64,000 nt of DNA from Blastococcus colisei. GTDB lineage: Bacteria > Actinomycetota > Actinomycetes > Mycobacteriales > Geodermatophilaceae. The notes below the pieces were generated by a model that had not been told where the DNA came from, searched no databases, and was given only the letters and a program-made list of their open reading frames with translations. The stretch lies in contig NZ_VFQE01000001.1 in the NCBI RefSeq assembly GCF_006717095.1, forward strand, positions 2,790,001-2,854,000, read 5' to 3'. Shown piece after piece: positions 19,721 through 40,983 of this stretch. The translations under genes were made by a program, and so were the position numbers. The stretch's first letter is position 1. Each line of letters begins with the position of its first letter.

Positions 19721-19721
19721 C

Positions 19722-22170: not shown

Positions 22171-22174
<4 letters not shown>
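20888..22174 (-). CDS. pyrC: Dihydroorotase
   Basis: The 428 aa amidohydrolase cyclises carbamoyl-aspartate. The binuclear zinc site begins with [18 protein letters not shown] (HxH motif); later metal ligands are in [11 protein letters not shown] and [10 protein letters not shown], and the catalytic Asp is in [13 protein letters not shown]. Its ATG overlaps the pyrB stop. In many actinobacteria a small membrane protein lies between pyrC and carA; here there is none and the two genes overlap directly. Confidence 0.95.
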
Positions 22175-23978
<1,804 letters not shown>

Positions 23979-23988
23979 GCAGACAGCG

Positions 23989-24543
23989 ATGAGCACCGAC
24001 TACTCACGGGCCCTCGGCGCCCGCCTCCGCGCCATCCGCAACCAGCAGGGCCTGTCCCTGCAGGGAGTGGAGGACAAGTCGCACGGCCGCTGGAAGGCAG
24101 TCGTCGTCGGCTCCTACGAGCGCGGCGACCGCGCCGTCACCGTCCAGCGCCTGTCCGAGCTCGCCGTCTTCTACGGCGTGCCCGTCTCCGAGCTGCTGCC
24201 CGACCCGCGTCCCAGCTCGGCCGTCACCTCCAGCACCAAGATCGTGCTGAACCTGGAGTCGCTGGGCTCGCTGCCCGCCGACGAGGCCGGCCCGCTCGCC
24301 CGCTACGCCTCGACCATCCAGGCGCAGCGGCACGACTACAACGGCAAGGTGCTGTCGATCCGCGCGGAGGACCTCAAGTCGCTGGCGATCATCTACGACA
24401 TGAGCCCCGACGAGCTGACCACCCGGCTCATCGAGTGGGGCGTCCTCTCCCCCGGCATGGAGAGCGTCGTCGGCTTCGGCGGTCCCGATGACGACGACGA
24501 GGAGCTCGACCCGAACTGGGAGCGCCGCCGCTCCCCCCGCTGA
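23989..24543 (+). CDS. bldD: c-di-GMP-responsive developmental regulator BldD
   Basis: A 184 aa protein. Residues ~1-75 form an XRE-type helix-turn-helix (LGARLRAIRNQQGLSLQGVE ... GSYERGDRAVTVQRLSELA). The C-terminal domain retains the c-di-GMP-binding signature RxD-X8-RxxD: RHD, eight residues, then RAED (about residues 112-126). In Streptomyces, BldD bound to tetrameric c-di-GMP represses development genes. An acidic DDDDEE segment near the end is typical. It is divergent from the pyr operon and convergent with the first LuxR-type regulator. Confidence 0.93.
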   Translation: MSTDYSRALGARLRAIRNQQGLSLQGVEDKSHGRWKAVVVGSYERGDRAVTVQRLSELAVFYGVPVSELLPDPRPSSAVTSSTKIVLNLESLGSLPADEAGPLARYASTIQAQRHDYNGKVLSIRAEDLKSLAIIYDMSPDELTTRLIEWGVLSPGMESVVGFGGPDDDDEELDPNWERRRSPR

Positions 24544-24590: not shown

Positions 24591-27296
24591 TCACAGACCG
24601 AGCAGATCACTCGGCAGGGGCCTCGGCGCGGGTCCCCCCGGAGTCGGACGCCCCCTCACCAGCGCCCACTCCGCCATCGTCAGGGTCGTACGGAGATCGG
24701 CGCGCCCCTTGATCCCGAACTTCGTGTAGACGTGCGCCAGATGGGCCTCGACCGTCCGCACCGACACCACCAGCTGATGGGCGATCTCCTGGTTGCTCAA
24801 GCCCTGGACGGCGAGCCGGGCCACCTCCTCCTCCCGCGAGGTCAGCGCGGGAGGAGCCAGGAGGTCGAGCGCGGGCGTGTCAGCCAGGCCGCAACCCCGC
24901 GCAAGGGCCGCCGCCCTCGCGCGGGAGACCGCCGCCGCACGCCGGTCTCCCGCCCGTTCGTGCGCAGCAGCCGCCTCCGCCGCGGCGTCCGCGGCGAACA
25001 ACAGCGCTCCGGCCCCCTCGAAACGGTGGCCGATGGCGTCGAGTCGATCCCCGGCTCCGACGGCGACTGCCTCGGCGTGTGCTGCGAGATCGACCACGAA
25101 GGGCGAGTCGAGCCGCTCGGCGAGATCTCGCAGCCTCTCCACGACCTCGGCGGCACGCCCGTAGCGCAGGGCACAGTGCAGGACGATCGCCTCGACGGCC
25201 GACTGCCCTTGTCGAGCGGCGAGGGCCGCGGCATCGAGGACGAGGCAGCCGGCGTCCGCGCTGCGGTTCTCCGCACCCGCCAGCCATGCCTGGGCGAGAC
25301 GGGCCTGGGGGTCGAACACCCTGACCGGCCCAGATGGGGTGCTGCCCAGGTCGCCCAGGAGCTCCCGGGCGCCGGGGCGGTCACCGCTGAGCGCCTTGGC
25401 CATCGCGAGCAGCTGACGGCAGAGCCCTTCCAGGCCGACCGGGTCACCCCGCCGAAGACCGCCGAGGGCCTCGACGAGCCAACGGGTCGCCGGGCGTATC
25501 CGGCCGCCGGCCAGTGCCGCCCACCCGCGGTGCAGGCAGGCGATGGCGTCTCCGGCCCATTCCGGCGCCATGAGGTTGCTGCGATGCAGTTCCGCCGCGC
25601 GACGTTCCAGGTCGTGGATGCGCCCGGTCAGGTGGAGCGCCATGACCTCCGCCTGAGCCAGGACCACGCGCGCGAACGCAGCTTCGACGCACTCCCTCTC
25701 GGAACGGAGGGCCGCCCATCCCGCGCTGGTGGTCGCGAGCGCCTCTGTGGTGCGACCGGTCACGGCCAGCCCCGCGGCCGCGGCCGCGGCGGCCAGGGGA
25801 CGGGAGGCATCGCCGTGCCCGCCCGAGGACAGCACGGGCGTGGCCAGTCGCACGGCGCGCTCGGGGTCCCCGCCGAGGAACGCCAGGACCGCCTCGGCCG
25901 CCGCCAACACCGCACGAGCTTCTTCCGAACCGACGGTGGCGGCCGCCTCGCGGAGCGCGGCAGCGGCGTCCTCGCCCCGTCGCAGGCCACAGAAGAGCGT
26001 CAGCGCCCGCGCCGCGGTCAGCCGGGCGCGGTCGTACTCCGTGGCGACCACCCGCGTCGCCTCGATCGCGAGCTGGACGCTCCGCTCCGGTCGGCCCAGC
26101 CACCGGGAGGCATCGACGAGCTCGAGGTGGGCCCGTGGGTTCGCACCCGCGTCGATGCCGGCACGCGCCAGCCTTTCGGCCGCAGCGTGGTCCAGCATGG
26201 CGTTCGCGCGCCGGGCAGCCTCTGCCAGCATGGGGGCGTCCGGTGCCGACACACCGCTGTCGAGCAGGGCGACGCACCGGCGCACCAGCTGACCATCGAG
26301 CCCGTTCCCGGTCCGTTCCTCGGCGAGCCGGCGCTGGATGAAGCACATGGCCGCCGCGGGAGCCTGGCTGCGAACCACCTCCACGTACAGCGGATGGCCG
26401 GCACGGACCGCACCGGATCCGCCCTCGGCGTCCGTGACTACACCGCGGCGCGCCAGGGAGGCGACCGCTTCCGGACTGCTCAGCGCGGCGAGCTGGTGGA
26501 CGCTCACCGGTTCAGCGGTCGCCAGCACCTCGAGCGCCCTCCACTCGGTGGCGTCCAGGTGCCCGAGCTGCGCGAGGACGATCTCGGTCAGGCGTCCTGA
26601 CGGGACCACGGGCCCCTCCCAGCGCCACAACCCGCAGGAACTCCCCAACCGTCCGGTGCGCACGCCGTCCTCGAGGAGCTCCCGGAGGAACAGAGGGCTC
26701 CCCTGGCTCAGCCGCCAGAGCCGCTCACCGGTCCGCGTCTCGACGTCCCCGCCCAGCGCCTGGCTGATCAGCCGCTCCGTGTCGGACCGTCGCAGCGGCT
26801 GCAGCTCGATCCGCGTGGCCAGCCCGTCCTTCCACAGGGGCGCGGCGGGGTCCGGCGTGGCGTTCCCGGTGCGTACGGACAGCACGAGCGTGACCGCGCC
26901 ACTGGCAGCCAACTGGTGCAGCAGGGTGACCGACAGTGGGTCCAGGAGGTGCACGTCGTCGACGCCGAGGACCGGCACGGGGCCGGATCCGTCGCCAGCG
27001 ATGGCGTGTGCCGCTCGTTGGAGCAGCACGAGCGCGTCCGAGGAGACGTCGATGGTCGCCAGGAGGTGCGCCAGCGCACCCAGAGGGACGAACGCCGCCG
27101 CACCCGTTCCTCGGGCCCACCGTGTCGGCTGCCCCGCGCGCTGGGCCAGGGACAGGGCCTCGCGGGCAAGCCGCGTCCGTCCCACCCCGGCCGGCCCCAC
27201 GATGACGAGGCTGCGGGGTGGCTCGTCCTCCAGCGCGGAGGCGATCGCCGCGCAGGCGGCGTCCCGGCCGACCAGTGCCCAGCGCCCCTGGTCCAT
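24591..27296 (-). CDS. Large ATP-binding LuxR-family (LAL-type) transcriptional regulator, cassette A
   Basis: A 901 aa regulator. An N-terminal STAND/AAA-like ATPase (residues ~5-250) has a Walker A variant GPAGVGRT (34-41, Arg replacing the usual Lys) and Walker B VLGVDDVHLLD (109-119). A long helical repeat region (~300-820) resembles TPR-like sensor arrays. A C-terminal LuxR helix-turn-helix (~835-895) reads LTSREEEVARLAVQGLSNQEI and SVRTVEAHLAHVY. I chose the ATG at 27294-27296 (MDQGRWALVGRD) because the paralogue starts at the same place. Likely role: activator of the peptide/protease cassettes; inferred from position only. It is convergent with bldD. Confidence 0.85.
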   Translation of the reverse strand: MDQGRWALVGRDAACAAIASALEDEPPRSLVIVGPAGVGRTRLAREALSLAQRAGQPTRWARGTGAAAFVPLGALAHLLATIDVSSDALVLLQRAAHAIAGDGSGPVPVLGVDDVHLLDPLSVTLLHQLAASGAVTLVLSVRTGNATPDPAAPLWKDGLATRIELQPLRRSDTERLISQALGGDVETRTGERLWRLSQGSPLFLRELLEDGVRTGRLGSSCGLWRWEGPVVPSGRLTEIVLAQLGHLDATEWRALEVLATAEPVSVHQLAALSSPEAVASLARRGVVTDAEGGSGAVRAGHPLYVEVVRSQAPAAAMCFIQRRLAEERTGNGLDGQLVRRCVALLDSGVSAPDAPMLAEAARRANAMLDHAAAERLARAGIDAGANPRAHLELVDASRWLGRPERSVQLAIEATRVVATEYDRARLTAARALTLFCGLRRGEDAAAALREAAATVGSEEARAVLAAAEAVLAFLGGDPERAVRLATPVLSSGGHGDASRPLAAAAAAAGLAVTGRTTEALATTSAGWAALRSERECVEAAFARVVLAQAEVMALHLTGRIHDLERRAAELHRSNLMAPEWAGDAIACLHRGWAALAGGRIRPATRWLVEALGGLRRGDPVGLEGLCRQLLAMAKALSGDRPGARELLGDLGSTPSGPVRVFDPQARLAQAWLAGAENRSADAGCLVLDAAALAARQGQSAVEAIVLHCALRYGRAAEVVERLRDLAERLDSPFVVDLAAHAEAVAVGAGDRLDAIGHRFEGAGALLFAADAAAEAAAAHERAGDRRAAAVSRARAAALARGCGLADTPALDLLAPPALTSREEEVARLAVQGLSNQEIAHQLVVSVRTVEAHLAHVYTKFGIKGRADLRTTLTMAEWALVRGRPTPGGPAPRPLPSDLLGL

Positions 27297-27482
27297 CAGG
27301 AGCTCAGGGTGTCCGTCGGCCCACGAGGTGGACGCCGACCACGTCGCTGACCGGTCCCTCTCTGCAGACGCGTCATCTCGCGCTCGGTGACCACAACCGC
27401 TCCCCCCGGGACCCCATCCGCGAGCCCGTGCGGCGGACCCTAATGAGGTGGGGAGATCACCGGGGGTGACGCGACCACAGCG

Positions 27483-27496
27483 GTACGAATTCGTAC
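27483..27496. promoter_or_regulatory. 14-bp perfect palindrome between protease 1 and its regulator
   Basis: GTACGAATTCGTAC is self-complementary over 14 bp and is AT-rich for this genome. It lies ~190 bp upstream of the regulator ATG, in the 250 bp gap between the protease stop and the regulator start. It could be an operator. I find no clear counterpart in the corresponding gap of cassette B (34778-35014). Confidence 0.35.
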
Positions 27497-27546
27497 AGGA
27501 ACACACCCGTCCGCTCGTCGATTCCTGACCGAGCGTGGCCTGTCGG

Positions 27547-30500
27547 TCACCAGCCGGTGGCTGGAACGGGCGCAGGGGGCGACCAGCCGACGGACACTCC
27601 CGACGGCCCGGCTGTGACCACGGACGGCGCAAAGGGTGTTGGCTGCGCCTGCAGCCATTCCGTCAGGACGGCGACGACCTCGGGCCGGTCCGCCGAGCGG
27701 CCGTCCAGCCGGGTCACCACGATCTCGTGGCGGGGACCAGCGCCCGGGTCCTCCCCGCTCCCGGTGGGCACCGCCGCGACCTCGACGGTGTGTTCCACGG
27801 TCAGCCCGGCGAGCACCACGAGGACCCGGGCATCCACGCTGCCGTTCCGGAGTGCGGTCAGGACGTCGGGCTCCGCGAGCAAGCGGGGACTGGAGGCGAG
27901 AAGCCTGCCCAGCCTCTGCTGCGCCACGACCGCGGGCCCTGCCGCGTGCCGCCCGGCCGCCGCCTCGGCGGCGTGCCGCTCCACCGCCGCCATGCGATGT
28001 CGCATCTCGGCCGGCGGGAGCGGCAGGACCGTCAGCGACGTGGCTCCGGCGCCGAAGCCGGCCGCCGCGCCGGTCACGCCGCCGACATCGCCGACCTCCA
28101 CCGTCCAGATCGCTGCGGCCGCGTCCGGCGCCGTGGTGAGGACCAGCCGATCCTCGGGGACGCCGTCGCGGAGGAGGTCTCCCCACAGACGGACGGGCAC
28201 GGCGACGGTGCCGCCCGTGGAGGCGGGCCCGGTGATCCAGGCGGCCAGCTCCCGGTGCGGCAGGCCTCCGGCGGCCACAGGGAGGAACAACCCGCCCACC
28301 ACGATCACGACCACCGCGGGGACGGCCACGGCGACGCGCAGCAGTGGGTGCGGCCGTTCCTCCGGACGTCCGCGCGCGAGCGCGTCGGTGACGAGGGCCG
28401 CCAGGCCGGCGGCCGCCACGACCGCCAGCAGGAGGGCCCCCTCGGCCCCCCTCCACGGCAGCACCGCCAGGACCACCAGCGTCGCAGCGGCCATGGCGTG
28501 CGGCCGGAGCCAGCGGACGACGAGCCCGACGACGACCACCAGCCCGACGGCCAGGAGGAGCACGGTCCGCTCCGACCCGTCCAGGGACAGGTCCCGGGAC
28601 CTTCCCGCCGGCACCGCACCGAAGGCGCCGAATGCGCCGACTGCGAGCAGCAGGGCCATCGCGAGCCACACCGCGGGATCCGCCATCCCGCTCCGTCCCC
28701 GCACGGTCGTGTACCGCCGACCGGTGACCGGGTGCGCCGGATGCGCGGCGGTGCCGTTCGCCGGCACCGGTGCGACCGACCGTCGTGGCCGTCCCGTGCC
28801 CGGCTGGCCGTGGGTGAGGACGGCGGCGAGGCCGGCGGCCAGCGGCACCGCGAGCAGGGGCTCGGTGACCACCCCGACCGCGATCGCGAAGGCCCCGAGG
28901 AGCATCGCCGGCCGACGGCGCACCAAGGCCACTGTCAGCGCGCCGCCTGCGGCCCACGCGGCCCCGAGGAGGGAGGGCCCGGCCGTGGCCAAGGCCGTCA
29001 CTGCCGGGCCCATGGCCACGGTCGCGGCCAGGGGCACGGCCACGGCGAGCGGTCGCAACCGGCGCGTGGCCACGAGCACCAGCACGCAGATCACGACGAC
29101 GCCCGACGCGACGACGGCCGGTTCCCGGCCACCGGTGAGCACCGTGGCGTGGCGGTCGAAGGCCCCCGTCAGGGCGGCGTAGCCGACCAGCTGCTCACGT
29201 GCCGGCCACTCCCCCGGTCCGACCGTCGGGCCGCCGTCGATGCCCCGCACCGCGGCGAGCGCGCCGGCGACGAACCGCGCCTCCCCCGTCGTGGCGGGGT
29301 GCGCCGACGCGACGGCGGCTACCCGCGCGACGAGCAACGCACCGAGGGCACCCAACGCCGTGAGTGCCACTGCACGACGCACGGCCGGCTGCCCGGCGAC
29401 GCTCATCCGCGCCCACCGCCAGCGCGCGGCGAGAACCCGGTGGAGGAGGCCCGCCAGTGACCAGAGGATCAAGCCGACGCCGATCCAGGGCAGGGCCAGG
29501 AGCAGGAGCTGGAAGACGCCCAGCGTGGTGACGGCGACGTCACCGGTCCGCGCCGCTGCGTCCAGGCGCCGGAGGTACTCCAGGGTCGCCTCCCAGGCCG
29601 CGGGCAGGAGCCGGGGCACCGCGATGAGGAAGGCCACCAGGTACAGGGTCAGCACCGGGACCACCACCACGACCCAGAGCAGGACCAGTCGCCGGGCCCG
29701 CGGCTTGAGCTGACGCATCAGCGGGTGCGCCGGGCGCCAGGGAAGGAGGCTCCCGAGCACCGGCCTGACGTACCCGAACAGGTCGGGGACACCGAGCAGG
29801 TCGGCGAGGACGTAGTAGCCATCCATCCGGAGCAGGGGCAGGAACTGCCAGGCCGTCTCGACGTGCTTCCCGATGAGCGCGAGGAGCAGCCACGGCTCGC
29901 CCGTGCCGATGTACACCAGGCCCAGCCCGAGCATGAAGACGGCGTTGAAGTAGACGCCACCCAGATCCGTCCGCAGCCGCCCGACGCGGTCCAGTCGGTA
30001 GCTGTCGGTGACCGTGCTGTAGAAGGCCGGCCAGACCAGGTAGAGGCCGACGCCGATGTCGCCCGGGCGGGCCCCGCCGTACCGGCAGGCGGTGACGTGG
30101 CCGCACTCGTGGACGGCGGACGCCACGATGCCGAGGCCCAGGATCGCGAGGATCAACGTGGGGTGCAGCGCTATGTCACGGACGCCGGCCACCATGCGGC
30201 CCACGACGTCCCCCTGCGCGACGATCCAGAGGTCGGTGACGACGAACGCAGTCAGGAGCCCGATCCAGACCGGCCGGACGAACAGGACCCGGAAGAATCC
30301 GGCGATGCGCCATGCCACACCGGCGGAGATCACCCCGACCCGGTAGCGCAGGGCGAGCAGGGGGTCCGACCGGACGGGGGCCGGAGTCGGGGTCGGGGCC
30401 ACGGTCGTTCCGTCCTCGGCAGTGCGCTGGGAGCCGCGGTCGGGCGCGATCAACCCGACGGGCCGCAGCCGCTCCTCCACGAGGAAGGAGACCTGTTCGG

Positions 30501-30762
30501 CCGTGAGGTGCTGCTCCAGCTCCGCCCCGACCTGCGCCGCGACCTCCCCGTCGTCGCGCGTGCCGTCGAGGGAGCACGCCACGCGGTAGAGGAGTCCGGG
30601 CAGTTGCATCGCCTGCCCGTCGGCCCGCTGGACCAGGTACTTGGGTTCCTGGTAGGCCGAGTCCTTGTACTCCCCGAGGAGCTCGATGCCCTCCGCCAGG
30701 CGGTGCACGGGGAAAGCGCCCGCCGTCGAGGGCGTCAGGACGTCGCTGTCCGCCACACGCAC
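27547..30762 (-). CDS. M50-type peptide zinc metalloprotease membrane protein with PqqD-like N-terminus, cassette A
   Basis: About 1,071 aa. Residues ~18-105 resemble a PqqD-like domain (VHRLAEGIELLGEYKDSAY ... VSFLVEERLRPVGL), the fold that binds peptide leaders in many RiPP systems. Membrane spans follow, with the zinc motif HECGH at 218-222 and third-ligand motif RMDGYY (Asp ~314), as in YydH-like peptide metalloproteases. The second half adds many further spans (~350-790) and an exported C-terminal domain (~800-1071). It lacks Cys-peptidase or ABC domains. I prefer the GTG at 30760-30762, which follows GAGGAGG and makes the zinc motif align with the paralogue; a longer start at 30798 abuts a hairpin. 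Probably processes or exports the adjacent peptides. Confidence 0.8.
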   Translation of the reverse strand: MRVADSDVLTPSTAGAFPVHRLAEGIELLGEYKDSAYQEPKYLVQRADGQAMQLPGLLYRVACSLDGTRDDGEVAAQVGAELEQHLTAEQVSFLVEERLRPVGLIAPDRGSQRTAEDGTTVAPTPTPAPVRSDPLLALRYRVGVISAGVAWRIAGFFRVLFVRPVWIGLLTAFVVTDLWIVAQGDVVGRMVAGVRDIALHPTLILAILGLGIVASAVHECGHVTACRYGGARPGDIGVGLYLVWPAFYSTVTDSYRLDRVGRLRTDLGGVYFNAVFMLGLGLVYIGTGEPWLLLALIGKHVETAWQFLPLLRMDGYYVLADLLGVPDLFGYVRPVLGSLLPWRPAHPLMRQLKPRARRLVLLWVVVVVPVLTLYLVAFLIAVPRLLPAAWEATLEYLRRLDAAARTGDVAVTTLGVFQLLLLALPWIGVGLILWSLAGLLHRVLAARWRWARMSVAGQPAVRRAVALTALGALGALLVARVAAVASAHPATTGEARFVAGALAAVRGIDGGPTVGPGEWPAREQLVGYAALTGAFDRHATVLTGGREPAVVASGVVVICVLVLVATRRLRPLAVAVPLAATVAMGPAVTALATAGPSLLGAAWAAGGALTVALVRRRPAMLLGAFAIAVGVVTEPLLAVPLAAGLAAVLTHGQPGTGRPRRSVAPVPANGTAAHPAHPVTGRRYTTVRGRSGMADPAVWLAMALLLAVGAFGAFGAVPAGRSRDLSLDGSERTVLLLAVGLVVVVGLVVRWLRPHAMAAATLVVLAVLPWRGAEGALLLAVVAAAGLAALVTDALARGRPEERPHPLLRVAVAVPAVVVIVVGGLFLPVAAGGLPHRELAAWITGPASTGGTVAVPVRLWGDLLRDGVPEDRLVLTTAPDAAAAIWTVEVGDVGGVTGAAAGFGAGATSLTVLPLPPAEMRHRMAAVERHAAEAAAGRHAAGPAVVAQQRLGRLLASSPRLLAEPDVLTALRNGSVDARVLVVLAGLTVEHTVEVAAVPTGSGEDPGAGPRHEIVVTRLDGRSADRPEVVAVLTEWLQAQPTPFAPSVVTAGPSGVSVGWSPPAPVPATGW

Positions 30763-30800
30763 CCCGGGCACCCCCTCCTCGAACGGAACTCCGGACACGA

Positions 30801-30830
30801 GGAGGGGCGGCCGTGTCCGGCCGCCCCTCC
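30801..30830 (-). terminator. 13-bp perfect hairpin between peptide 1 and protease 1
   Basis: GGAGGGGCGGCCG (30801-30813) pairs exactly with CGGCCGCCCCTCC (30818-30830) with a TGTC loop. It lies 44 nt after the peptide 1 stop. No T-run follows, so it may be a partial terminator or 3'-end stabiliser that makes peptide mRNA more abundant than protease mRNA. Confidence 0.6.
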
Positions 30831-30873
30831 GTGCGACGCCGGGCGCTGCGCGTCAGCGATCCAGCGACCGGGC

Positions 30874-31065
30874 TCAGCCGCCGTAGAAGTTGCTGCCGGC
30901 GGCGGCCGCGGCGAACGCGCTGTTGAGCTGGTCACCACCGACGTTGATGTTGCCGGCATTCACGGCGACGGCGATGGCCAGGTTGCCGCTCTGGCTGGTG
31001 TAGCCGCCCCACGAGTCCATCGTGGTGCGCGCGGGCAGTAGCTCGACCTTCTGGTCCTCGAACAT
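30874..31065 (-). CDS. Small peptide 1 of cassette A (putative secreted/processed peptide)
   Basis: Encodes 63 aa: leader MFEDQKVELLPARTTM, a DSWGGYTSQS hinge, then an Asn/Gly/Ala-rich segment (SGNLAIAVAVNAGNINVGGD) ending FAAAAAGSNFYGG. A ribosome binding site (GAGGAG) lies just before the ATG. Three more paralogues in this window share the leader almost exactly, which is strong evidence of coding. The product has no Cys, no Sec signal and no predicted membrane helix of usual length. It could be a RiPP-like precursor cleaved after the leader or a self-assembling peptide. I do not recognise the family. Confidence 0.85.
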   Translation of the reverse strand: MFEDQKVELLPARTTMDSWGGYTSQSGNLAIAVAVNAGNINVGGDQLNSAFAAAAAGSNFYGG

Positions 31066-31138
31066 GGTGCTCTCCTCAGGGATCGGTATGCCGGGGATCC
31101 GCCACGGGGAGGACGACGGGGGCCTCCCGCCGAGCCTG

Positions 31139-31246
31139 TCCCGCTCGCCCCGTGGGCTGCCGAGATCGGGCCGCGGTCCGAAGTCGACGGCGGAAGTGTC
31201 TGCCGGTCCCGGTAGGCCGGACAACGGTGGGCGGCACCTAACCCGC
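31139..31246 (-). promoter_or_regulatory. Conserved upstream block of peptide 1
   Basis: This ~108 bp block, 74-181 nt upstream of peptide 1, matches the block at 31691-31796 upstream of peptide 2, including the shared string AAGTGTCTGCCGGTCCC, CCGCGGTCCG and CACCTAA (plus strand). Spacing to the start codon is the same within ~4 nt. It probably contains the promoter and operator of the peptide gene. Confidence 0.6.
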
Positions 31247-31365
31247 CGGGCTTCGATCCCTACCTCCCGCCCGGATCACCACGTCCGGCCGGGGCCGCTG
31301 TACGTAGGGAGAGCACCGGCTACTGACCTCGGGACGCCCGCGCCGCAGTGCACGAACGGAAAGGA

Positions 31366-31424
31366 GGGGCGGTCGGGTCCCGACCGCCCCTCCCCGTCCC
31401 GGCCACCGGGAACCGGTGGCCGGG
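31366..31424 (-). terminator. Two stacked 12-bp perfect hairpins after peptide 2
   Basis: First after the peptide 2 stop (minus strand): arms CCCGGCCACCGG (31398-31409) and CCGGTGGCCGGG (31413-31424). Second: GGGGCGGTCGGG (31366-31377) and CCCGACCGCCCC (31379-31390), followed on the minus strand by TCCTTTCC. Both stems are perfect. They probably end or stabilise a short peptide 2 transcript; peptide 1 then has its own upstream block. Confidence 0.65.
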
Positions 31425-31433
31425 ATCGATCCG

Positions 31434-31619
31434 TCAGCCGAAGTTGCTGCCGGCCGCGGCCGCGGCAAAGGCCTCGTTGGCCTGGAACCCGTACAGGTTG
31501 ACGTTGCCGTGGTTCACGGCTGCGGCCACCGCGGTGTTGTAGCTCTGTGAGGTGTAGCCGCCCCACGTGTCCATCGTGGTGCGTGCCGGCAGCAGCTCGA
31601 CCTGCTGATCCTCGAACAT
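31434..31619 (-). CDS. Small peptide 2 of cassette A
   Basis: Encodes 61 aa. The leader MFEDQQVELLPARTTM is followed by DTWGGYTSQS and an Asn/Ala-rich segment (YNTAVAAAVNHGNVNLYGFQ), ending FAAAAAGSNFG. The ATG is preceded by CTGAGGAGA. The C-terminal half diverges more than the leader from the other three copies, while keeping Asn positions and the AAAAAGSNF end. It is the first gene of cassette A, separated from the disrupted regulator of cassette B by 449 bp. Function as for peptide 1: likely a precursor or structural peptide handled by the neighbouring M50 protein; unproven. Confidence 0.85.
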   Translation of the reverse strand: MFEDQQVELLPARTTMDTWGGYTSQSYNTAVAAAVNHGNVNLYGFQANEAFAAAAAGSNFG

Positions 31620-32068
31620 GGTGTCTCCTCAGGATCGGTACTGGGATGGGGTCCGCCAGGAAGAACGACGACAGCGGTCGTCGTCCGGCCTTCCCGCTCG
31701 CTCCGTGGGCGCCGGTTCCGGCCGCGGTCCGGAATCGACCTCGGAAGTGTCTGCCGGTCCCGGAAACGCGGGCAACGGTGGAGAGCACCTAAACCCACCA
31801 CAGCGTGCCGAGGCCTCACCCGGATCACTACTGCGAGCGCACGGCGCCGGTACGCAGCAGAGCGGCCAGGTACGGATTCCCCGAACCCGGGGACCGGGGT
31901 GCCGCCCGGGGTCCCCGGCGACCGGCACGATCCGCCACCAGCACCCGGTTCGTCCGGTCGGGAAGTGCTTCCCGCGGCGGATCGCGCCGGGAACGCCGTC
32001 GTCCGCCGACCGGGACGGCCGCCTGGGGGCGTTCCCTGCCAGTGCGAGGAACCCTCGGTCCTCCACGG
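31620..32068. other. Intergenic region between cassettes
   Basis: These 449 bp hold the peptide 2 leader and upstream block. The first 26 nt of conserved leader (31624-31649) are identical to 38892-38917 before peptide 4. The remainder, 31800-32068, shows no gene: reading frames there are Arg/Pro-rich shadows without family features. No third peptide copy is present. Confidence 0.55.
31691..31796 (-). promoter_or_regulatory. Conserved upstream block of peptide 2
   Basis: About 106 bp, 72-177 nt upstream of the peptide 2 ATG, closely matching the block before peptide 1. CCGGCCGCGGTCCGG (31718-31732) is also found identically at 38987-39001 before peptide 4, at 99 and 102 nt from the respective start codons. 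Conserved sequence at fixed distance indicates a shared promoter/operator, perhaps the target of the LuxR-type regulator. Confidence 0.6.
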
Positions 32069-34777
32069 TCAGCGGTCAACGACGTTCCGCCCGATGCGGG
32101 CGACACCTGCGCCGTCGACCTCCGGATCCCGCCGAGGTAGCGGGGCCGCGCGCCTGTCCAGGGCATCGAAGAGCTCGGGGCGGCCTCTGATGCCGAGCTT
32201 GCTGTAGACGTGCGCCAGGTGCGCCTCGACGGTGCGGACCGACAGCACGAGCCGGTCGGCGATCTCCAGGTTGGTGAGGCCCCGGCTGGCGAACCGGGCC
32301 ACCTCCCCCTCGCGCGCCGTCAAGTCCGGCGGAGAGAGAGCACCCAGGGCCGGCGTCTTGACGAGGCCGCCCTCCCGTGCCAGGGCCATGGCCCTCGTTG
32401 CCGCCGATGCCGCCGCTCGCCGGTCGCCGGCGCGCTCGTGCACGGCAGCGGCCTGCGCAGCGGCGTCCGCGGCGGGCAGCAGGGCGCTCGCCTGCTCGAA
32501 GGCACGACTGACGGTGCTCAGCCGATCGGCCGAGCGCGCGACGGTGGCCTCGGCATACGCCGCGAAGTGCACCCCCAGCGGTGAGTCGAGGCGCTCGGCC
32601 AGGTCCCGTAACCGGTCCACGACCTCCGCTGCTCGATCGAAGCTCAGCGCGCTGTGGAGCATGGCCGCCTCGACCGCCCACTGCCCGTGCTCGGCGGCGA
32701 GTCGCGCCGCCCCGAGGGCCAGCCGGCCCGCGTCGGCGGTCCGGCCCTCCGCCGCGGCGACCCAGGCGCGGGACAGGTGCACGTCCGGGTCGAAGGCAGT
32801 GATGGCCGGCTGAGGAGTTCGATCGACGACGCAGAGGAGCTCCTTCGCGCCGGCCACGTCGCCGGAGAGGGCCTTCGCCCTCGCCAGCAGCGCGACGCAG
32901 ATCCGCCGCATGCCGGTCGGATCGAGTCGCTCGAAGCCGAGGAACGCCTCGTTGAGCCACCGCATCGCCGGCCGTGGTCGGCCGCACGCCAGCGCTGCCC
33001 ACCCGCGGTGGAGGCAGGCGACGGCGTCCCCCGCCCACTCCGGGAGAGCCAGGTTGCGCCGGTGCAACTCGGTCGCGCGGCGGTCGAGTTCCAGGAACTG
33101 CCCCCCGAGGTGCAGCGCCATGATCTCCGCCTGCGCGAGGGCGATACGCGCGAAGCCCGGCTCGGTCACCTCGGGCAGCCCCCCGAGCGCCTCCCAACCG
33201 GCGCGCGCGGTGGCGAGGGCACGCCCGGTCTCCCCGATCATGGCGAGTCCCGTCGCGGCAGCGGCTGCTGCCAGCGGCCCGGCGACGCCGCCACCGGTGT
33301 CCGAGCCGAGCACGGCCGTGGCCTGCCGGACTCCACGCGTGGGATCACCGCCGAGGACCGCCAGGAGCGCCTCGGTGGCCGCGAGGACCGCCCGGTCCTC
33401 GTCTCCCCCGACAGTGCCGGCCACGTGGGCGAGGAGAGCCGCTGCATCCCGGGCCCGCCCCCATCCGCAGAAGAGAGTGAGCGCACGGGCGGCGGTCAGC
33501 CGCACTCGGTCCTCCTCCGTGACGGCGAGGCGCGTCCCCTCGATCGCCAGCTGCTCACCGGCCTCCAGATCGCCTCGCCAGTAGGTTGCCTGGAACAGGG
33601 GGAGGTAGGCCTCGGCCCCCCCTCCTGCACGGATGGCGGTGCGTGCCAACCACTCGGCCCGGGGATGGTCGGACATCGCGATCGCTCGCCGGGCGGCCTG
33701 CACGAGGAGTGGCGGACCCGGCGCCGGGGCGTCGCTGTCCCAGTCCACGGACGGCCTTCGCAGCAGCTCCTCGGGCGACGCGGCGTGCCGGTTCCCGTCG
33801 ATGAGCCGTGTTCCGAGGAGCCTCAGTCCGGCTGGGGATGCCCGGCAGCGGACGACTTCGGCGTGCAGCGGGTGCGACACCTGCACCCCGGTCGAGCCGC
33901 CGGGGTCGGCGACGGTGATCAGCCCGCGGCGTTCCAGCCGGGCGACGGCGTCCTGGCCGGCGAGGTCGACCACCTCCTGGACGCTCGCCGCCTCCCCGGT
34001 GGCGAGCGCGTCGAGGGCCTTCCACTCACCGGCATCGAGCTCACCGATCTGCATGAGGACGATGTGCCTCAATCGCTCCGACGGTGTCATCGGGCCGTCC
34101 CACCGCCACAGACCCCGGTCGACGCGGAGCCGTCCGGTCTGCAGGCCGTCTTCCACCAGTTCCCGGAAGTACAGCGGCGTGCCTTGGCTCAGGCGCCACA
34201 ACGCCTCGCTCGTGCGGGTCTCCACGTCGCCGTCGAGAACCATCCCGGAGAGACGCTCGAGGTCCGCACGCACGAGGGGATGCAACTCCAACCGCTTGGC
34301 CAGACCGTCCTTCTAGAGGGGTGTCGTGGGGTCTGCTGCGACCGGGTCGGTTCGAACCGTGAGGACCAGGGTGGCCGCACCTGTGACGGCCAGGTGGTGG
34401 AGCAGGGTGATCGACAGCGCGTCCAGGAGGTGCACGTCGTCGACACCCAGCACCGGAGGTGCCTCCGATCCGTCCCCGCCGATGGCGTGAGTAGCGCGCT
34501 GGAGCAGGACGACAGGGTCCGTGGCAGCGTCCGCGGCCGGGAGGAGGTGGGTCAGCGCACCGAGCGGTATCCGGCCGGCTGCGGCGCTTCCCACCGCCCA
34601 TCGCGTCGGTCGGTGCGACGCCTCGGCGCGACGCAAGGCCTCCCGCGCGAGTCGCGTCCGACCGACACCGGCCGGCCCCGTGACGACGACACTGCGGCTG
34701 GGACGGGCATCCAGCGCATCTGCGACGGCCGCACTCTCCTGGTCACGCCCGACCAACGGCCAGCGGTCAGGCCGCAT
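32069..34777 (-). pseudogene. LAL-type LuxR-family regulator of cassette B, interrupted by an in-frame amber codon
   Basis: Would be 902 aa and is homologous end to end to the regulator at 24591-27296. It keeps Walker A GPAGVGRT, Walker B VLGVDDVHLLD, the helical repeat region and a C-terminal LuxR helix-turn-helix (LTAREGEVARFASRGLTNLEI, SVRTVEAHLAHVY). A TAG at 34313-34315 falls at codon 155, exactly where the paralogue has Trp155 (TGG): PL-stop-KDGLA versus PLWKDGLA. Everything downstream stays in frame and well conserved. It splits the gene into a 154 aa ATPase fragment and a ~740 aa piece that could restart at a TTG (34289-34291). The lesion is recent, a sequencing error, or subject to readthrough. 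Confidence 0.8.
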
Positions 34778-35014
34778 CAGCCCGACGCCTTCCCCGCATG
34801 CGGACCGTCGGCACTCCGCAGCGGGGCCCGCCGCACGCCCTGGGGCACACCACCTGCTCCGTCACGGCCGTCTCCCCCTCGCCCAGCCAGAGCGCTCGCC
34901 CGGGCACGCTACTTCGGAACGGAAGCGTCCGGATACGGGGCCGACGTCAGCCCTCACGACAGGTGGCGGCTGACACCAGCCGCCGTCGGGTCCTCACCGG
35001 CGGTGGGCGGGGCG

Positions 35015-38000
35015 TCACGCACCCGGCGGCCACGCGACCAGGACCCCCTCCGGACCCGGGGTCACCTCGGAGGGAGCGATTCCCGGCGCCCAGGCGGTGA
35101 GCCGCTGGGTCAGGGCGGCGACGACCTCGGGGCGTGCGACCGGGGCGTAACCGAGGGAGGTGATCAGGAGATGACGCCGGGGCAGCGCAGGATCGTCCCC
35201 GACGGCGACGGGCACGTCGGCAACGGTGACCGCGTACTCGTGCGTCAGGGAAGCCAGAACCACGAGGACCCGCATGTCCACACTGCCGTCACGAAGCGCA
35301 CCCAGCACATGCGGCGACCCCACGAAACCGGGCCGCTCCGCGAGCAGGCCGCCGAGCGAACGTCGCGCGGCATCCTGCTCCGCCTGCAGGACGACGAGCT
35401 GTTCCTGGACCGCCTCCTGGTCACGGGCCGCAACCTCGGCGCGCTGGTCGGCCCGGGCCCGCGCGATCGCCTCGGACCGGGCCCGGGCGGACATCTCCAC
35501 CGTCAGGGCGGTCCCGCCGCCGGCGAACGTAGCGGCGGGCTGCGTGCCCGGCCCGGGGGCGCCGACCACGACCGTCCAGTCCGCGTCGGCGTCGGTGCCC
35601 GCACGGACGAGGCGGGACGGAGGCACGCCGTTCCGCACGAGGTCACCCCACAGGCCCGCCGGGACCGCCACCGTGCCCGTCGGCCCGTCCGGTGCCGAGA
35701 TCCAGGAGGCGAGCGCCGCGTGTGGTGGCACGGGGGCCGCAACGGGGAGGAAGAGAGTTCCGGCCAGGATGAGGAGCGCGGCCGGTACGGCGACGGCGGC
35801 ACGGTGCAGCGGGTGAGGCCTGTTCGCGACCGGCCGACGGAGGAACGCCGCGGTCATGAGCACCGCGAGCAGTCCCGAGGTGACCACCGCCAGGGCGAGA
35901 GCGTCGCCCGACGCCGGCCACGGCAGCACCGCCAGCACGGTCGCCGACCCAGCCGCCGCGGCGAAGGGCCGCAGCGGCCACAGGGACCGCAGCACCAGGC
36001 CGCCGAGGACGACGACGGTGGCGGTGAGCAGGAGAACCATGCGCTCGGAACCGTCGAGGGGGCTACCGGCGGCGGCAGCCCCGAGGGTCGCGGCGCCTGC
36101 GCCCAACGGCAGGACCACGGCAACCGCGAGCCACCTCCGGGGGTTCCCCGGCGCCGACGTCGACTCGGCATGCCTGGCGTGCCCCGCCCTGTCCGAGGAG
36201 GCCGACGCGGCGATCCTGCGCCAGAGGTCACGCGGCCCCCGGTGATCTGCCGCGGCGTGCCCGGGCGTCTCGTGCCGGCCGGCCGGATGCCCTGTCCTGG
36301 CCAGCAGCAGCACCGCGATGGCGGCCGCCAGCGGAACGGCGAGGAGTGGCTCCGTGGCGGCCCCCACCGCGATCGCGACCGTCCCGACCGCTGCCACGCC
36401 CCTGCGCCGGGTGCACGCCACGAGCAGCACGCCGACCGCCGCCCAGGCGACGCCCACCGTGCCCGAACCGACCGTGGCCAGCATCGTGACAGCCGGTCCC
36501 ATCGCGAGGATCGCCACGAGCGGCACGCCGACCGCCAGCGGTGGCAGTCGGCGCATGCCGACGAGAGCGACGAGGCAGACGACCAGCACCGCGCAGGCCA
36601 GCACGGCGATCTCCCGGGCGCCGGCGACCACGGTGGCGTGCCGATCGAAGGCCCCCGTCCCACGGGCGAACAGCACGAGCTGCTCGCGGAGAAGCCAGTC
36701 CCTCCACCCGGGAGCGAAGTCACCGTCGTGCCCGCGCACCTCGGCCAGCGCGCTGTCGGTCAGCGTCGTCTCATCCGGCGTCGCGGGACGCGACGACGCT
36801 GTGTGGACGACCCGCACGAGGAGGAGAGCGCCGACGGTGACGAGGCCGGCCAGGCTCGCCAGACGGCGCACCGCCGCCCTCGTGTCCGGGCGGAGCCGGG
36901 CCAGTCCCGAGCGGTCCGCGAGCCGGCGGCCGACCACGTCGACCAGCATCCAGAGGGCCATGACACCGCCGGCCCAGGGCAGCAGCAGGAACAGGAGCTC
37001 GGTGACTCCCAGCACCGTGGTCACGATGTTGCCGTCCCGAGCGGCGCGGTCGACCACCTGCAGGTAGTTCAGCAGCGCCTGCCAGGCAGCCGGCAGGAGT
37101 CGGGGCAGCGCGACGGCGAAGAAGGCCAGCCAGAAGAGCAGCGTCGGCACGACCGCCACCACCCACAGGACGATGATCCGCCGCGCCCGCGGCTTGAGCT
37201 CGCGCACTGCCGGGTGCGTCGGACGCCCCGGCAGCACGCTGAGCAGCGCCGGCTTGACGTAGCTGAACAGGTCCGGCACGCCGACGAGGTCGCCGAGGAT
37301 GTAGTAGCCGTCCAGCCGCAGACTGGGGAGGAGCTGCCAGGCCGCCTCGACGTGCATCCCGAGGAGCGCGAGCAGCAGCCAGGGCTCTCCCGTATGGAGG
37401 TGGACCAGCCCGAGGCCCGCCATGAAGATCGCGTCGATGTACAGCCCGCCCAGGTCGGTGCGCAGCCGGCCCACCCGGTCGAGGCGGTAGCTGTCGGTGA
37501 CCGTGCTGTAGAAGGCCGGCCACACCAGGTACAACCCCACGCCGATGTCGCCGGGTCGGGCACCGCCGTAGCGGCAGGCGCCCACGTGGCCGAACTCGTG
37601 GAGGACTCCGGAGAGCACCGTGAGTCCGAGGATGACGAGGAGGAGGCCGGGCCGACGGCCCATCTCCCCCAGGCCGGCGACCATCCGGTCCACCAGGTCG
37701 CCCCGGAGGAGGATCCAGGCGTCCACCGCGACGAAAGCCGCGAGGAGGAGGGTCCAGACGGGCCGGCGGAACAGCGGCTGGAAGAGCCCGGCGATGCGCC
37801 AGACGACTTCGGCCGGGATCACGCCCACCCGGTATCGCAGCGCGAGCAGGAGGTCCGACCGGACCGGCAGTGGGATGTCGGCCGCCCGGTCCTGCGGATC
37901 GTCGGGGGCAGTCCGGTCCGGGGCGACGACGCCCACCGGACGAAGTCGCTCCTCGATCAGGAACGCCACCTCGTCCGCGGTCAGGTCAGCGCCCGACTCC

Positions 38001-38248
38001 CTGCTCAGGACAGCGGCGATCTCGTCGTCCCGGCGGCCGTCCAGTGAGCACGCCACCTGGTAGAGAAGGCGGGGCAGCTGCATGGCCTGGCCGTCCGACC
38101 GCTGGACCAGGAACTTCGGCTCCTCGTAGGCCGAGTCGCGGTACTCACCGAGCAACTCCGTGCCCGGCGCCAGCCGATGAACGCCGTCCGCGTCGCCGGC
38201 AGGCTGCGGCACGGCGCCGCGCTCCGCCACGCTGGTCACGTCCGACAC
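35015..38248 (-). CDS. M50-type peptide zinc metalloprotease membrane protein with PqqD-like N-terminus, cassette B
   Basis: A 1,077 aa paralogue of the cassette A protein. PqqD-like region at ~23-110 (HRLAPGTELLGEYRDSAYEE). Zinc motif HEFGH at 217-221, then a nearly invariant stretch YGGARPGDIGVGLYLVWPAF, and RLDGYY (Asp 313). Further membrane spans run to ~800, then an exported domain ~820-1077 that opens with SWISAPDGPTGTVAVPAGLWGD and contains an Ala/Glu/Gln-rich coiled segment. Initiation is at GTG 38246-38248. It follows peptide 3 by ~110 bp and precedes the broken regulator by 237 bp. The protease half is more conserved between copies than the C-terminal half. Confidence 0.82.
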   Translation of the reverse strand: MSDVTSVAERGAVPQPAGDADGVHRLAPGTELLGEYRDSAYEEPKFLVQRSDGQAMQLPRLLYQVACSLDGRRDDEIAAVLSRESGADLTADEVAFLIEERLRPVGVVAPDRTAPDDPQDRAADIPLPVRSDLLLALRYRVGVIPAEVVWRIAGLFQPLFRRPVWTLLLAAFVAVDAWILLRGDLVDRMVAGLGEMGRRPGLLLVILGLTVLSGVLHEFGHVGACRYGGARPGDIGVGLYLVWPAFYSTVTDSYRLDRVGRLRTDLGGLYIDAIFMAGLGLVHLHTGEPWLLLALLGMHVEAAWQLLPSLRLDGYYILGDLVGVPDLFSYVKPALLSVLPGRPTHPAVRELKPRARRIIVLWVVAVVPTLLFWLAFFAVALPRLLPAAWQALLNYLQVVDRAARDGNIVTTVLGVTELLFLLLPWAGGVMALWMLVDVVGRRLADRSGLARLRPDTRAAVRRLASLAGLVTVGALLLVRVVHTASSRPATPDETTLTDSALAEVRGHDGDFAPGWRDWLLREQLVLFARGTGAFDRHATVVAGAREIAVLACAVLVVCLVALVGMRRLPPLAVGVPLVAILAMGPAVTMLATVGSGTVGVAWAAVGVLLVACTRRRGVAAVGTVAIAVGAATEPLLAVPLAAAIAVLLLARTGHPAGRHETPGHAAADHRGPRDLWRRIAASASSDRAGHARHAESTSAPGNPRRWLAVAVVLPLGAGAATLGAAAAGSPLDGSERMVLLLTATVVVLGGLVLRSLWPLRPFAAAAGSATVLAVLPWPASGDALALAVVTSGLLAVLMTAAFLRRPVANRPHPLHRAAVAVPAALLILAGTLFLPVAAPVPPHAALASWISAPDGPTGTVAVPAGLWGDLVRNGVPPSRLVRAGTDADADWTVVVGAPGPGTQPAATFAGGGTALTVEMSARARSEAIARARADQRAEVAARDQEAVQEQLVVLQAEQDAARRSLGGLLAERPGFVGSPHVLGALRDGSVDMRVLVVLASLTHEYAVTVADVPVAVGDDPALPRRHLLITSLGYAPVARPEVVAALTQRLTAWAPGIAPSEVTPGPEGVLVAWPPGA

Positions 38249-38279
38249 CTCACCCGCTCGGACTCAGGAGCAGACGAGA

Positions 38280-38308
38280 GAGGGGCGGCCGGGGACCGAC
38301 CGCCCCTC
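38280..38308 (-). terminator. 9-bp hairpin between peptide 3 and protease 2
   Basis: GAGGGGCGG (38280-38288) pairs with CCGCCCCTC (38300-38308). It holds the same place, and shares the GGGGCGG arm, with the hairpin between peptide 1 and protease 1. Likely attenuates transcription into the protease gene. Confidence 0.5.
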
Positions 38309-38360
38309 CCTGTCACCTCGGATGACGGTGCAGCGTCGGGAGACGACCACACCGCCTGCA

Positions 38361-38552
38361 TCAGCCGAAGAAGTTGCTGCCGGCCGCGGCCTCGGCCACG
38401 GCGACGTTGAGCTGGCTGCCGAACACGTTGACGTTGCCGTAGTTGACGGCTGCCGCCACGGCGAGGTTGCCGCTCTGGATGTTGGTGCTACGACCCCACT
38501 TCTTCATGGTGGTGCGCGGCGGAAGGAGCTCGACCTGCTGGTCCTCGAACAT
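38361..38552 (-). CDS. Small peptide 3 of cassette B
   Basis: Encodes 63 aa: leader MFEDQQVELLPPRTTM (Pro replacing Ala at position 12), KKWGRSTNIQS hinge, then SGNLAVAAAVNYGNVNVFGS and an end EAAAGSNFFG. A ribosome binding site GAGGGGA precedes the ATG. It is the second peptide of cassette B, 129 nt after peptide 4, and lacks the conserved upstream block, so it is probably co-transcribed with peptide 4. The KKWGRSTNIQ hinge is shared only with peptide 4, showing pairs diverged after the cassette duplication or were homogenised within cassettes. Confidence 0.84.
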   Translation of the reverse strand: MFEDQQVELLPPRTTMKKWGRSTNIQSGNLAVAAAVNYGNVNVFGSQLNVAVAEAAAGSNFFG

Positions 38553-38641
38553 GGGATTCCCCTCAGCATCGGTTGTGGTGTGGACTGCGGAGCGAGGAGT
38601 CACGGGCGGGCCCGTGACACCTGTACGAGCTCTGCGTGGCC

Positions 38642-38672
38642 GGCCGGCCCCGGACACGGTCCGGGACCGGCC
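38642..38672 (-). terminator. 14-bp hairpin (one mismatch) after peptide 4
   Basis: GGCCGGCCCCGGAC (38642-38655) pairs with GTCCGGGACCGGCC (38659-38672), with a single mismatch and a 3-nt loop, 9 nt downstream of the peptide 4 stop. A further 8-bp hairpin, GTCACGGG/CCCGTGAC (38599-38618), lies in the peptide 3 leader. These parallel the hairpins after peptides 1 and 2. Confidence 0.6.
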
Positions 38673-38681
38673 GGGCACACG

Positions 38682-38885
38682 TCAGGGAGCGCCGAAGTAG
38701 AAGAAGTTGCTGCCGGCCGCGGCGGCCGCGCTGGCGACGTTGACCTGGTCGCCACCGAAGTTGATGTTGCCCGCGTTCACGGCGATGGCGATGGCGATGT
38801 TGCCGCTCTGGATGTTGGTGCTGCGACCCCACTTCTTCATGGTGGTCCGCGCCGGTAGCAGCTCGACCTGCTGGTCCTCGAACAT
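38682..38885 (-). CDS. Small peptide 4 of cassette B
   Basis: Encodes 67 aa, the longest copy: leader MFEDQQVELLPARTTM, KKWGRSTNIQS hinge, SGNIAIAIAVNAGNINFGGD core and an extended end AAAAAGSNFFYFGAP. The ATG is preceded by CTGAGGAGA. The core alternates small hydrophobics (Ile/Ala/Val) with regularly placed Asn and Gln, a pattern seen in beta-strand stacking repeats. It is the first gene of cassette B, with ~590 bp of upstream sequence shared with a divergent lipoprotein gene. The product may be a leader-cleaved bioactive peptide or a surface-assembling peptide. Confidence 0.85.
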   Translation of the reverse strand: MFEDQQVELLPARTTMKKWGRSTNIQSGNIAIAIAVNAGNINFGGDQVNVASAAAAAGSNFFYFGAP

Positions 38886-39474
38886 GGATGTTCTCCTCAG
38901 GATCGGTACTGGGATGGACTCGGCAGGAAGGATTCACAGCGGTGTCCGTGGGCCCTTCCGGCGTGCCCGGGGACTGACTGCCGCCTCCGGCCGCGGTCCG
39001 GGGACGACGGGCGAAGTCTCGACCCGTCCGCCGACGGCCAACAAGCGCGTCGATTACTGCTTCCAGCGCGACGAGCCACGTAGTCGACGACGCACAGCAC
39101 TGCCTCTCGCACCAGGACCACGTACTCATCCGCGGGGACTGCGCAAGCAACGGTCCCGGAACTGCAAAGGGCTCGACGGAACGGTCTCCCGTGCTAGAGA
39201 TGCGAGGTTTGCGCCCCGCCCATCGCGTCTCGGCGCACGTCGCCGGCGGTCAGGGACGCCGGCGCGGTGGAACCGGCGCGGCCGGACGGGTGTTGTGCGG
39301 CGAATTTCTCGGGTCATGCCTCGGCGCAGTAGTCGGCCGAGCAGGTATCGCTGCCCGCGAGCGCAGACCGTCAGCCACCTGGAGACGACGGCGTCGGCCG
39401 GTCGCCGGCACCGGTGCCCCGGAGGCGCTCCACCATCTTGTCCGCCGGGGGCTTCTGTGCTGGCCTTCTCGTCC
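38886..39474. other. Divergent intergenic region upstream of cassette B
   Basis: 589 bp between peptide 4 and a plus-strand lipoprotein gene. It contains the conserved 5' leader (38892-38917, identical to that of peptide 2) and the conserved upstream element at 38987-39022 (CCGGCCGCGGTCCGG then CGAAGTCTCGA). The region 39040-39470 is relatively AT-richer and shows no supported gene; several overlapping frames exist on both strands but none has a believable translation. Confidence 0.5.
38987..39022 (-). promoter_or_regulatory. Conserved upstream element of peptide 4
   Basis: CCGGCCGCGGTCCGG (38987-39001) is identical to the element before peptide 2 and nearly so before peptide 1, at 99-103 nt from each start codon; GAAGT follows at the same offset in all three. 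The rest of the ~105 bp block is less conserved here than between peptides 1 and 2. Confidence 0.5.
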
Positions 39475-40004: not shown

Positions 40005-40409
40005 TCAGGCGGTGGGCACCTCGGCGGCCAGGATCGCGCCGAGGACGCCGTTGACGTACGCCGGCGAGTCATCGGTGGACAGCGCCTTGGCCAGCTCCAC
40101 CGCCTCGTCGATGACCACGACGTCGGGGACGTCGTCGGCCCACAGCAGCTCGAACACCGCCATGCGCAGGATCGCCCGGTCGACGTCGGGCAGCCGGTCG
40201 ATCGACCAGTTGGACGCGTGCGCGTCGATCAGCGCGTCGATGCGGACGGCGTGTTCGGCCACGCCCTCGACCAGGCGGATCGTGTGCTCGGGGACGGGCG
40301 GTGGGGTCTCCATCCGGTCGCGGAGGACGGCGAGGCGGTCGCCACCCCGTACGTCGGCCTCGTAGAGGACGTCGACGGCGCGCTTGCGCGCCTTGGAGCG
40401 GGCAGCCAT
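40005..40409 (-). CDS. nusB: Transcription antitermination factor NusB
   Basis: A 134 aa all-helical RNA-binding protein acting with NusE in rRNA antitermination. Typical sequences are MAARSKARKRAVDVLYEADVRG at the start and LPDVDRAILRMAVFELLWADDVPDVVVIDEAVELAK. Full length. It is 13 bp downstream of efp, matching actinobacterial synteny. Confidence 0.95.
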   Translation of the reverse strand: MAARSKARKRAVDVLYEADVRGGDRLAVLRDRMETPPPVPEHTIRLVEGVAEHAVRIDALIDAHASNWSIDRLPDVDRAILRMAVFELLWADDVPDVVVIDEAVELAKALSTDDSPAYVNGVLGAILAAEVPTA

Positions 40410-40422
40410 GGAGGTGCCGGGC

Positions 40423-40983
40423 TCAGTTGACGCGGCCGAGGTACCGGCCGTCGCGGGTGTCGACCTTCAGCTTCTCGCCGGTGGTGATGAACAGCGGGAC
40501 CTGGATCTGGGCGCCGGTCTCCAGCGTCGCGGGCTTGGTGCCGCCGGTGGAGCGGTCACCCTGCAGGCCCGGGTCGGTGTGCTCGACCACGAGCTCCAGG
40601 GTGACCGGGAGCTCCACGTAGAGCGGGGTGCCGTCGTGCACGGCGACGATGACCTCGGTGTTCTCGAGGAGGTAGTCCGCTCCCCCGCCGACGGTCTCGG
40701 CCGGCACGTGGATCTGGTCGAACGTGTCGCCGTCCATGAACACGAAGTCGGCGCCGTCCTTGTACAGATAGGTCATCGACCGCTTGTCGACGTTGGCCGT
40801 CTCGACCTTCGTGCCCGCGTTGAAGGTCTTGTCGACGACCTTCCCCGAGAGCACGTTCTTCAGCGTCGTCCGCACGAATGCACCGCCCTTGCCGGGCTTG
40901 ACGTGCTGGAAGTCGGTCACCGTCCAGAGCTGGCCGTCCAGGTTGAGGACGATGCCGTTCTTCAGGTCGTTGGTGGTAGCCAT
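40423..40983 (-). CDS. efp: Translation elongation factor P
   Basis: A 186 aa protein that relieves ribosome stalling at polyproline. It has three beta-barrel domains; the tip loop reads KPGKGGAF with the Lys that is modified in some bacteria, and the C-terminal domain ends [22 protein letters not shown]. No modification genes (epmA/earP/ymfI-like) are visible here. Its ATG lies directly before the nusB-side sequence and one base from the pepP stop. Confidence 0.96.

Follow-up and report, generated by a model that had tools for sequence, protein, structure and literature searches.

Tandem leader peptide and membrane protease units in Blastococcus colisei resemble a pared-down, apparently undescribed version of known peptide-making systems

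The window examined here is a stretch of 64,000 nucleotides of the Blastococcus colisei genome (positions 2790001-2854000 of contig NZ_VFQE01000001.1; genome size 5.16 Mb), in which eight genes, all on the minus strand, form two tandem units. Each unit encodes two small precursor peptides with a common leader, a membrane protein of about 1,080 aa with an M50-type zinc site and an N-terminus like a RiPP (ribosomally synthesised and post-translationally modified peptide) recognition element (RRE), and a LuxR-type ATPase regulator (LAL) of about 900 aa. This layout had been described in an initial annotation made from the sequence, and coordinates and strand bear it out. The paralogy that it had pointed to holds as well, the two proteases (P1 and P2) being 57% identical, LAL1 being called by its similarity to LAL2 and the peptides sharing their leader. 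Among named genomes, the best matches of the window protease are in Geodermatophilus. The system, present in many actinobacteria, has the look of a reduced and so far undescribed relation of the known peptide-making systems, in which the membrane protease probably recognises the leader tag of the peptides and cuts it off. The eight genes are listed below.

38682-38885, minus strand: A1, precursor peptide of 67 aa, leader MFEDQQVELLPARTTM plus core
38361-38552, minus strand: A2, precursor peptide of 63 aa, leader MFEDQQVELLPPRTTM plus core
35015-38248, minus strand: P1, 1077 aa, RRE-like N-terminus plus M50-type membrane protein
32069-34777, minus strand: LAL1, LuxR-type ATPase regulator by similarity to LAL2, with an in-frame TAG at 34313-34315
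31434-31619, minus strand: A3, precursor peptide of 61 aa
30874-31065, minus strand: A4, precursor peptide of 63 aa
27547-30798, minus strand: P2, 1083 aa, RRE-like N-terminus (modelled strands and helices, residues 39-111) plus M50-type membrane protein
24591-27296, minus strand: LAL2, LuxR-type ATPase regulator without interruption, 901 aa counted from the chosen ATG

All four window peptides start with MFEDQ[QK]VELLP[AP]RTTM, so that the leader identity claimed for them is real, and their C-termini are GG, G, G and AP. A GAGG-type site precedes each start, and the GC content is 0.90-0.93 at codon position 3 versus 0.44-0.50 at position 2; these small open reading frames (ORFs) look like real genes. 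A search of the genome itself with one of the peptides (E ≤ 10) returned four matches, namely the four window peptides. Nucleotide differences among the four paralogues were summed over the six pairwise comparisons, which are not independent. The result showed that the leader, taken as 16 residues, differs at codon positions 1/2/3 by 6/0/26 (25 synonymous and 6 nonsynonymous codons), whereas the core differs by 69/55/73 (38 synonymous, 84 nonsynonymous). The leader is constrained at the protein level and the core is not, and changes almost confined to silent third positions in the one, together with changes at all positions in the other, are as expected if the leader is fixed for recognition and the core is less constrained.

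The annotation had staked its reading on the co-occurrence of leader and protease in other genomes, and such co-occurrence was found. Plasmid, named-genome, family and class searches gave 131 protease ORF hits, of which 126 contained both HExxH and DG and represented 97 distinct cores, hereafter protease loci; the five ORFs filtered out were truncated or stop-split frames (one frame truncated at its locus boundary, and a single stop-split locus, G240, fetched twice). Two weak hits (L044, G011:C5) and two fragments (G014:C69, G251:C446) were left out. Under a rule that called for a 35-300 aa ORF with a ribosome-site-like sequence and the leader motif, a leader-bearing ORF lay upstream in 87 of the 93 loci in which the HExxH codon is preceded by at least 1,900 nt, and the same rule matched 6/97 loci on the antisense strand and 3/51 downstream, where one match (L009) is a genuine additional peptide. 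Four of the six misses (L104, L036, L107 and L118) show a leader on inspection, a fifth (L116) has a BLAST-homologous precursor with no leader motif by inspection, and in the sixth (L090, which lies where L031 does) a candidate precursor bears a variant leader. The four loci with less than 1,900 nt before HExxH include two with a precursor, and none was found in the short stretch of L128 and L092; a precursor or candidate one is thus lacking in only two of the 97 loci, and there are one to four precursors per protease. The upstream expression had been relaxed once, from M/L to M/L/I/V at the last position and with a slightly wider range, after precursors of a second protease clade (clade 2) had been seen. 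Its strict form matched 68/97 loci (antisense 1/97, downstream 1/51) and its relaxed form, to which the control counts given above belong, 89/97. Clade-2 loci, which at first had the appearance of negatives, have a longer precursor with the leader ALPDKEV.

A second survey covered 112 Geodermatophilaceae genomes with a leader DNA pattern that was built from leaders already seen and that misses A2 of the window. The pattern matched 39 times in 14 genomes. It was found in 14 of the 15 genomes with a protease of the Geodermatophilaceae clade (clade 1) and in 0/97 genomes lacking it, and 39/39 matches lay within 6 kb of the matched clade-1 protease segment; a reversed control pattern gave one match. 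In the fifteenth genome (G014) the leader is of the variant form. The protease is common, with matches in 58/394 sampled genomes of the class (E ≤ 1e-15) and in 27/296 genomes of the phylum (E ≤ 1e-20), the latter including a few weak ones, with precursors examined in a minority.

Leader class and protease clade were compared on a quick tree of 100 rows, comprising the 97 protease loci, two MpaP proteins and one Hymenobacter M50 protein. To account for ten labels (precursor classes, outgroup and unassigned), set by regular expression and for six loci by hand, this tree required 11 changes, compared with a minimum of 9 and a shuffled mean of 59.9; 0/200 shuffles were as low, in a test that near-copies favour. 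The 17 loci with an ELLPARTTM-type leader, together with the variant, formed one fully supported group. The leader classes track the protease tree.

The zinc motifs that had been reported for the membrane protein are present in both copies, with HExxH at residue 230 of P2 and 217 of P1 and DGY at residues 326 and 313, respectively. HExGH and R-x-D-G were invariant in 47/47 aligned homologs, from loci for which HExxH and DG had been required, a filter that took out just 5/131 ORF hits. A large multi-pass region follows the M50 core of P1 and P2. Neither protein had a Pfam match, Peptidase_M50 included. NCBIfam gave matches below cutoff only: the daptide protease model NF041824 scored P2 at 83.2 and P1 at 81.4 bits, short of its curated cutoff of 300, and the LiaK model scored the two proteins at 37.5 and 42.1 bits (cutoff 225). 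The first member of the 47-homolog alignment had 85.9 bits with NF041824. All 47 homologs matched both models at E ≤ 0.001. One homolog (L064:199-2412) has a CbiA/ParA-like ATPase domain fused C-terminally, a clade-2 protease (L088:6157-8478) ends in a Cys-bearing stretch, ASCTGCRTVAVAFQVV, that is not in the P1 and P2 tails, and another homolog (G240:C426; L061, L127) carries a TAG stop between the two zinc motifs.

A PqqD-like N-terminus had also been proposed for the protease. The N-terminal 107 residues, modelled at a predicted local distance difference test score (pLDDT) of 76, give strands at 11-16, 25-29 and 35-39 followed by helices at 40-48, 55-66 and 72-83, which is the RRE order, and the full-length model has the same order at its N-terminus. 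In a fold search of the PDB (350,542 chains) the RRE proteins TbiB1 and PqqD ranked first and second (E 0.057 and 0.078), with weak TM-scores of 0.45-0.46 by query length. An N-terminal profile against the PDB also had PqqD as its best match (E 0.037), with unrelated proteins close behind. The proposal is supported by the succession of strands and helices in the model and by the two top-ranking fold matches, but the scores are weak and the Pfam PqqD gathering score of 23.4 bits was not reached (one fully scored member, 16.3). The model suggests a weak resemblance of the N-terminus to the RRE fold.

Core-gene-like flanks surround the cassette, with carB, pyrC, pyrB and pyrR in 16424-24000 and nusB, efp, a peptidase and aro genes in 40005-47261; the names nusB, efp, pyrR, pyrB, pyrC and carB are presumed from the sequences, not from a family search. 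Neighbours were surveyed around 53 protease entries, each covering at least 6 kb of sequence (the window counted twice), by de novo clustering of ORFs of at least 90 aa, the families being named by eye. Those present in at least 4/53 loci were the precursors, LAL, flanking nusB, efp, peptidase and pyrR, one 147 aa ORF (on the opposite strand near a Streptomyces-type protease in L010, L011, L012 and L093) and shadow frames, several of which were discounted by eye. Among families at this frequency neither a tailoring enzyme nor an exporter was noted, nor was a radical SAM epimerase, which epipeptide systems have. The description of the locus as a minimal system agrees with this survey, but the added remark that it could not be named needs amending, as the daptide protease MpaP is a close named relative. 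In 9/13 clade-1 loci that span about 15 kb or more, nusB and pyrR flank the cassette. Of 13 nusB loci from the same genus (flanks ≤ 1.5 kb, the window's included), three lack an intervening cassette, with pyrR at about 1 kb from nusB.

We consider it quite probable that these genes form a two-component peptide maturation system, with RRE-guided leader binding, M50 cleavage and core release without further chemistry. The genes, their pairing, conservation and co-segregation are observed and the fold resemblance is weak; from these we infer binding, cleavage, export, regulation and absence of modification as follows. Precursors would carry an N-terminal leader, E-x-L-L-P-x-R-x-x-M/L in general and VELLPARTTM in the window's clade, to which the RRE-like N-terminal domain of the adjacent membrane protease would bind. 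The M50 zinc site would then cut, in the membrane, near the M/L that ends the motif, taken as the leader/core junction, and the core would be released unmodified, into the membrane or across it. The one to four precursors of each protease would supply variant cores, and in Geodermatophilaceae the LAL regulator may control the cassette. If true, leader recognition and intramembrane proteolysis would make a complete route of peptide production without tailoring chemistry, the leader motif and protease pair could be used for genome mining, and leader class following protease clade would be a testable substrate code.

Several findings weigh against this reading. Pfam Peptidase_M50 was matched only weakly, by 11/47 members (E up to 0.1, best 0.0043), as was Pfam PqqD, by 5/47 (E up to 0.1, best 0.011), and the Foldseek search of the N-terminal domain against the PDB gave no match at E ≤ 0.001 (best E 0.057, TM-score 0.45). 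The full-length AlphaFold2 model has a mean pLDDT of 55.6, too uncertain for a fold search or a structural confirmation of the protease. The maximum hydropathy over 19 residues has a median of 1.27 in the cores, below the level of about 1.6 that is usual for a transmembrane helix. In addition, the neighbour survey is blind to enzymes or exporters encoded elsewhere, in ORFs of less than 90 aa or in fewer than four loci, and one Streptomyces locus (L005) has a major facilitator superfamily transporter and other genes nearby.

The closest known systems are daptides, for which the published account describes an RRE fused to a site-2 protease (MpaP/DapP), found through co-occurrence of RREs and short ORFs, and precursors with the leader ELExMEAP and an invariant C-terminal Thr (PMC10036551). 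The present family has daptide logic, with an RRE predicted at the N-terminus of a site-2 protease and, immediately upstream of the protease gene, short precursors, the order seen in an annotated daptide locus upstream of mpaP. It has another leader and another protease group, and the window proteases score 81-83 bits against the MpaP cutoff of 300 bits. A daptide-like pathway, in which tailoring genes lie elsewhere and the core is modified before MpaP-like cleavage, would fit this gene order and the remote match of 47/47 tested homologs to the MpaP model. We regard it as unlikely, since the leader is ELLPxR (VELLP[AP]RTTM in the window) rather than the ELExMEAP of daptides, only 4/147 precursors end in Thr, none of the four window peptides among them, and no tailoring family was noted among the neighbours in at least 4/53 loci. 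Families like MpaB, MpaC, MpaD and MpaM were likewise not noted at that frequency, in a survey that made no search with Mpa proteins. A published account of M50 proteases in peptide pathways ties the membrane protease EpeP/YydH to maturation, and as is thought also export, of a ribosomal peptide (PMC10885120). The protease here would resemble it in being a membrane M50 protease paired with a ribosomal peptide, a role predicted for the present system, but the window proteases match the LiaK model only remotely (37-42 bits against 225). In the same account the pearlin proteases TglG and TmoG, also M50 membrane proteases in a RiPP-type pathway, remove an amino acid at the C-terminus of a scaffold peptide (PMC10885120), unlike the window peptides, which are conserved N-terminally. 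No description of the leader/protease pairing or of the leader strings was found in the open-access literature searched; supplements of RRE surveys may list these proteins.

That the peptides are signals, with a protease-released peptide sensed by the LAL regulator in a quorum or stress circuit, is suggested by LAL, which is present in 15/15 clade-1 loci of 8 kb or more, although its order and orientation differ from locus to locus. However, LAL (E ≤ 1e-10) was found in 0/37 other loci with at least 6 kb, although nearly all of the protease loci have a precursor or candidate one. It was found to accompany the Geodermatophilaceae clade only, a point on which the initial reading needs amending. 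The cores are also long (median 56 aa) and low-complexity, and LAL1 is interrupted. LAL2 matched Pfam GerE (E 1.6e-15), with AAA_16 at 31.8 bits just short of the 32.6 cutoff, whereas the in-frame TAG of LAL1 marks a pseudogene or an assembly error and leaves, as assembled, an uninterrupted LAL in unit 2 only; the claim of a regulator of about 900 aa in each unit therefore holds for LAL2 but not for LAL1. We think a signalling role quite improbable. Scarcely credible in our view is that the M50 protein is a leader-binding exporter or anchor that does not cut peptides, an idea that the large multi-pass region behind the M50 core would allow, but against which stand zinc-site residues invariant in all 47 homologs, loci having been filtered beforehand for HExxH and DG. 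CGGACCGCGGCC may be an operator for LAL. It occurs in four exact copies in the window, three of them (38989-39000, 31720-31731 and 31169-31180) about 100-115 nt upstream of the peptide genes A1, A3 and A4; with one mismatch allowed it was not clearly over-represented in the window (13 found, 8.6 expected).

The cores are candidate surface or antimicrobial peptides. Over 147 precursors they consist of 19.5% Ala and 11.5% Gly, followed by V, S, D, N and T, and are poor in K, R and C. Pfam and NCBIfam gave no match up to E 10 for the four window peptides, NCBIfam none for peptides of five relatives, and both together only DUF5558 (E 5.7) for the long clade-2 precursor and one Gly-rich peptide; the best PDB sequence match of the long precursor was troponin (E 0.82). 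A hydropathy-period test (mean excess over shuffles) showed strand-like peaks at 172 and 176 degrees in two precursor classes, a weak peak at 160 degrees in the window's class (0.92, standard error 0.22), and peaks at 152 degrees in the Streptomyces class, 108 degrees (helix-like) in another and 128 degrees in the rest. Alternation of polar and apolar residues is marked in two classes, weak in that of the window and absent in others. These class-dependent periods ruled out a general beta-fibre reading, and with alternation confined to some classes a fibre-forming role is at most possible. Chaplins and rodlins are small low-complexity peptides of actinobacteria. The present peptides resemble them in size and complexity and, in two core classes, may do so in alternation, but their leader is acidic and by eye not Sec-like, and six peptides or precursors scanned had no match to Pfam chaplin, rodlin or curlin. 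We hold it conceivable, though doubtful, that the cores, unmodified and phylum-wide, self-assemble into polymers of the cell surface and form fibres or a coat, for which RRE-guided intramembrane release would replace Sec signal peptides, from what in Geodermatophilaceae would be a LAL-controlled cassette often between nusB and pyrR. Cys occurs anywhere in the core of 17/147 precursors, and four loci (L006, L048, L051 and L056) have a Streptomyces-type precursor with core Cys, as in ACQS and CTPA or CVPA.

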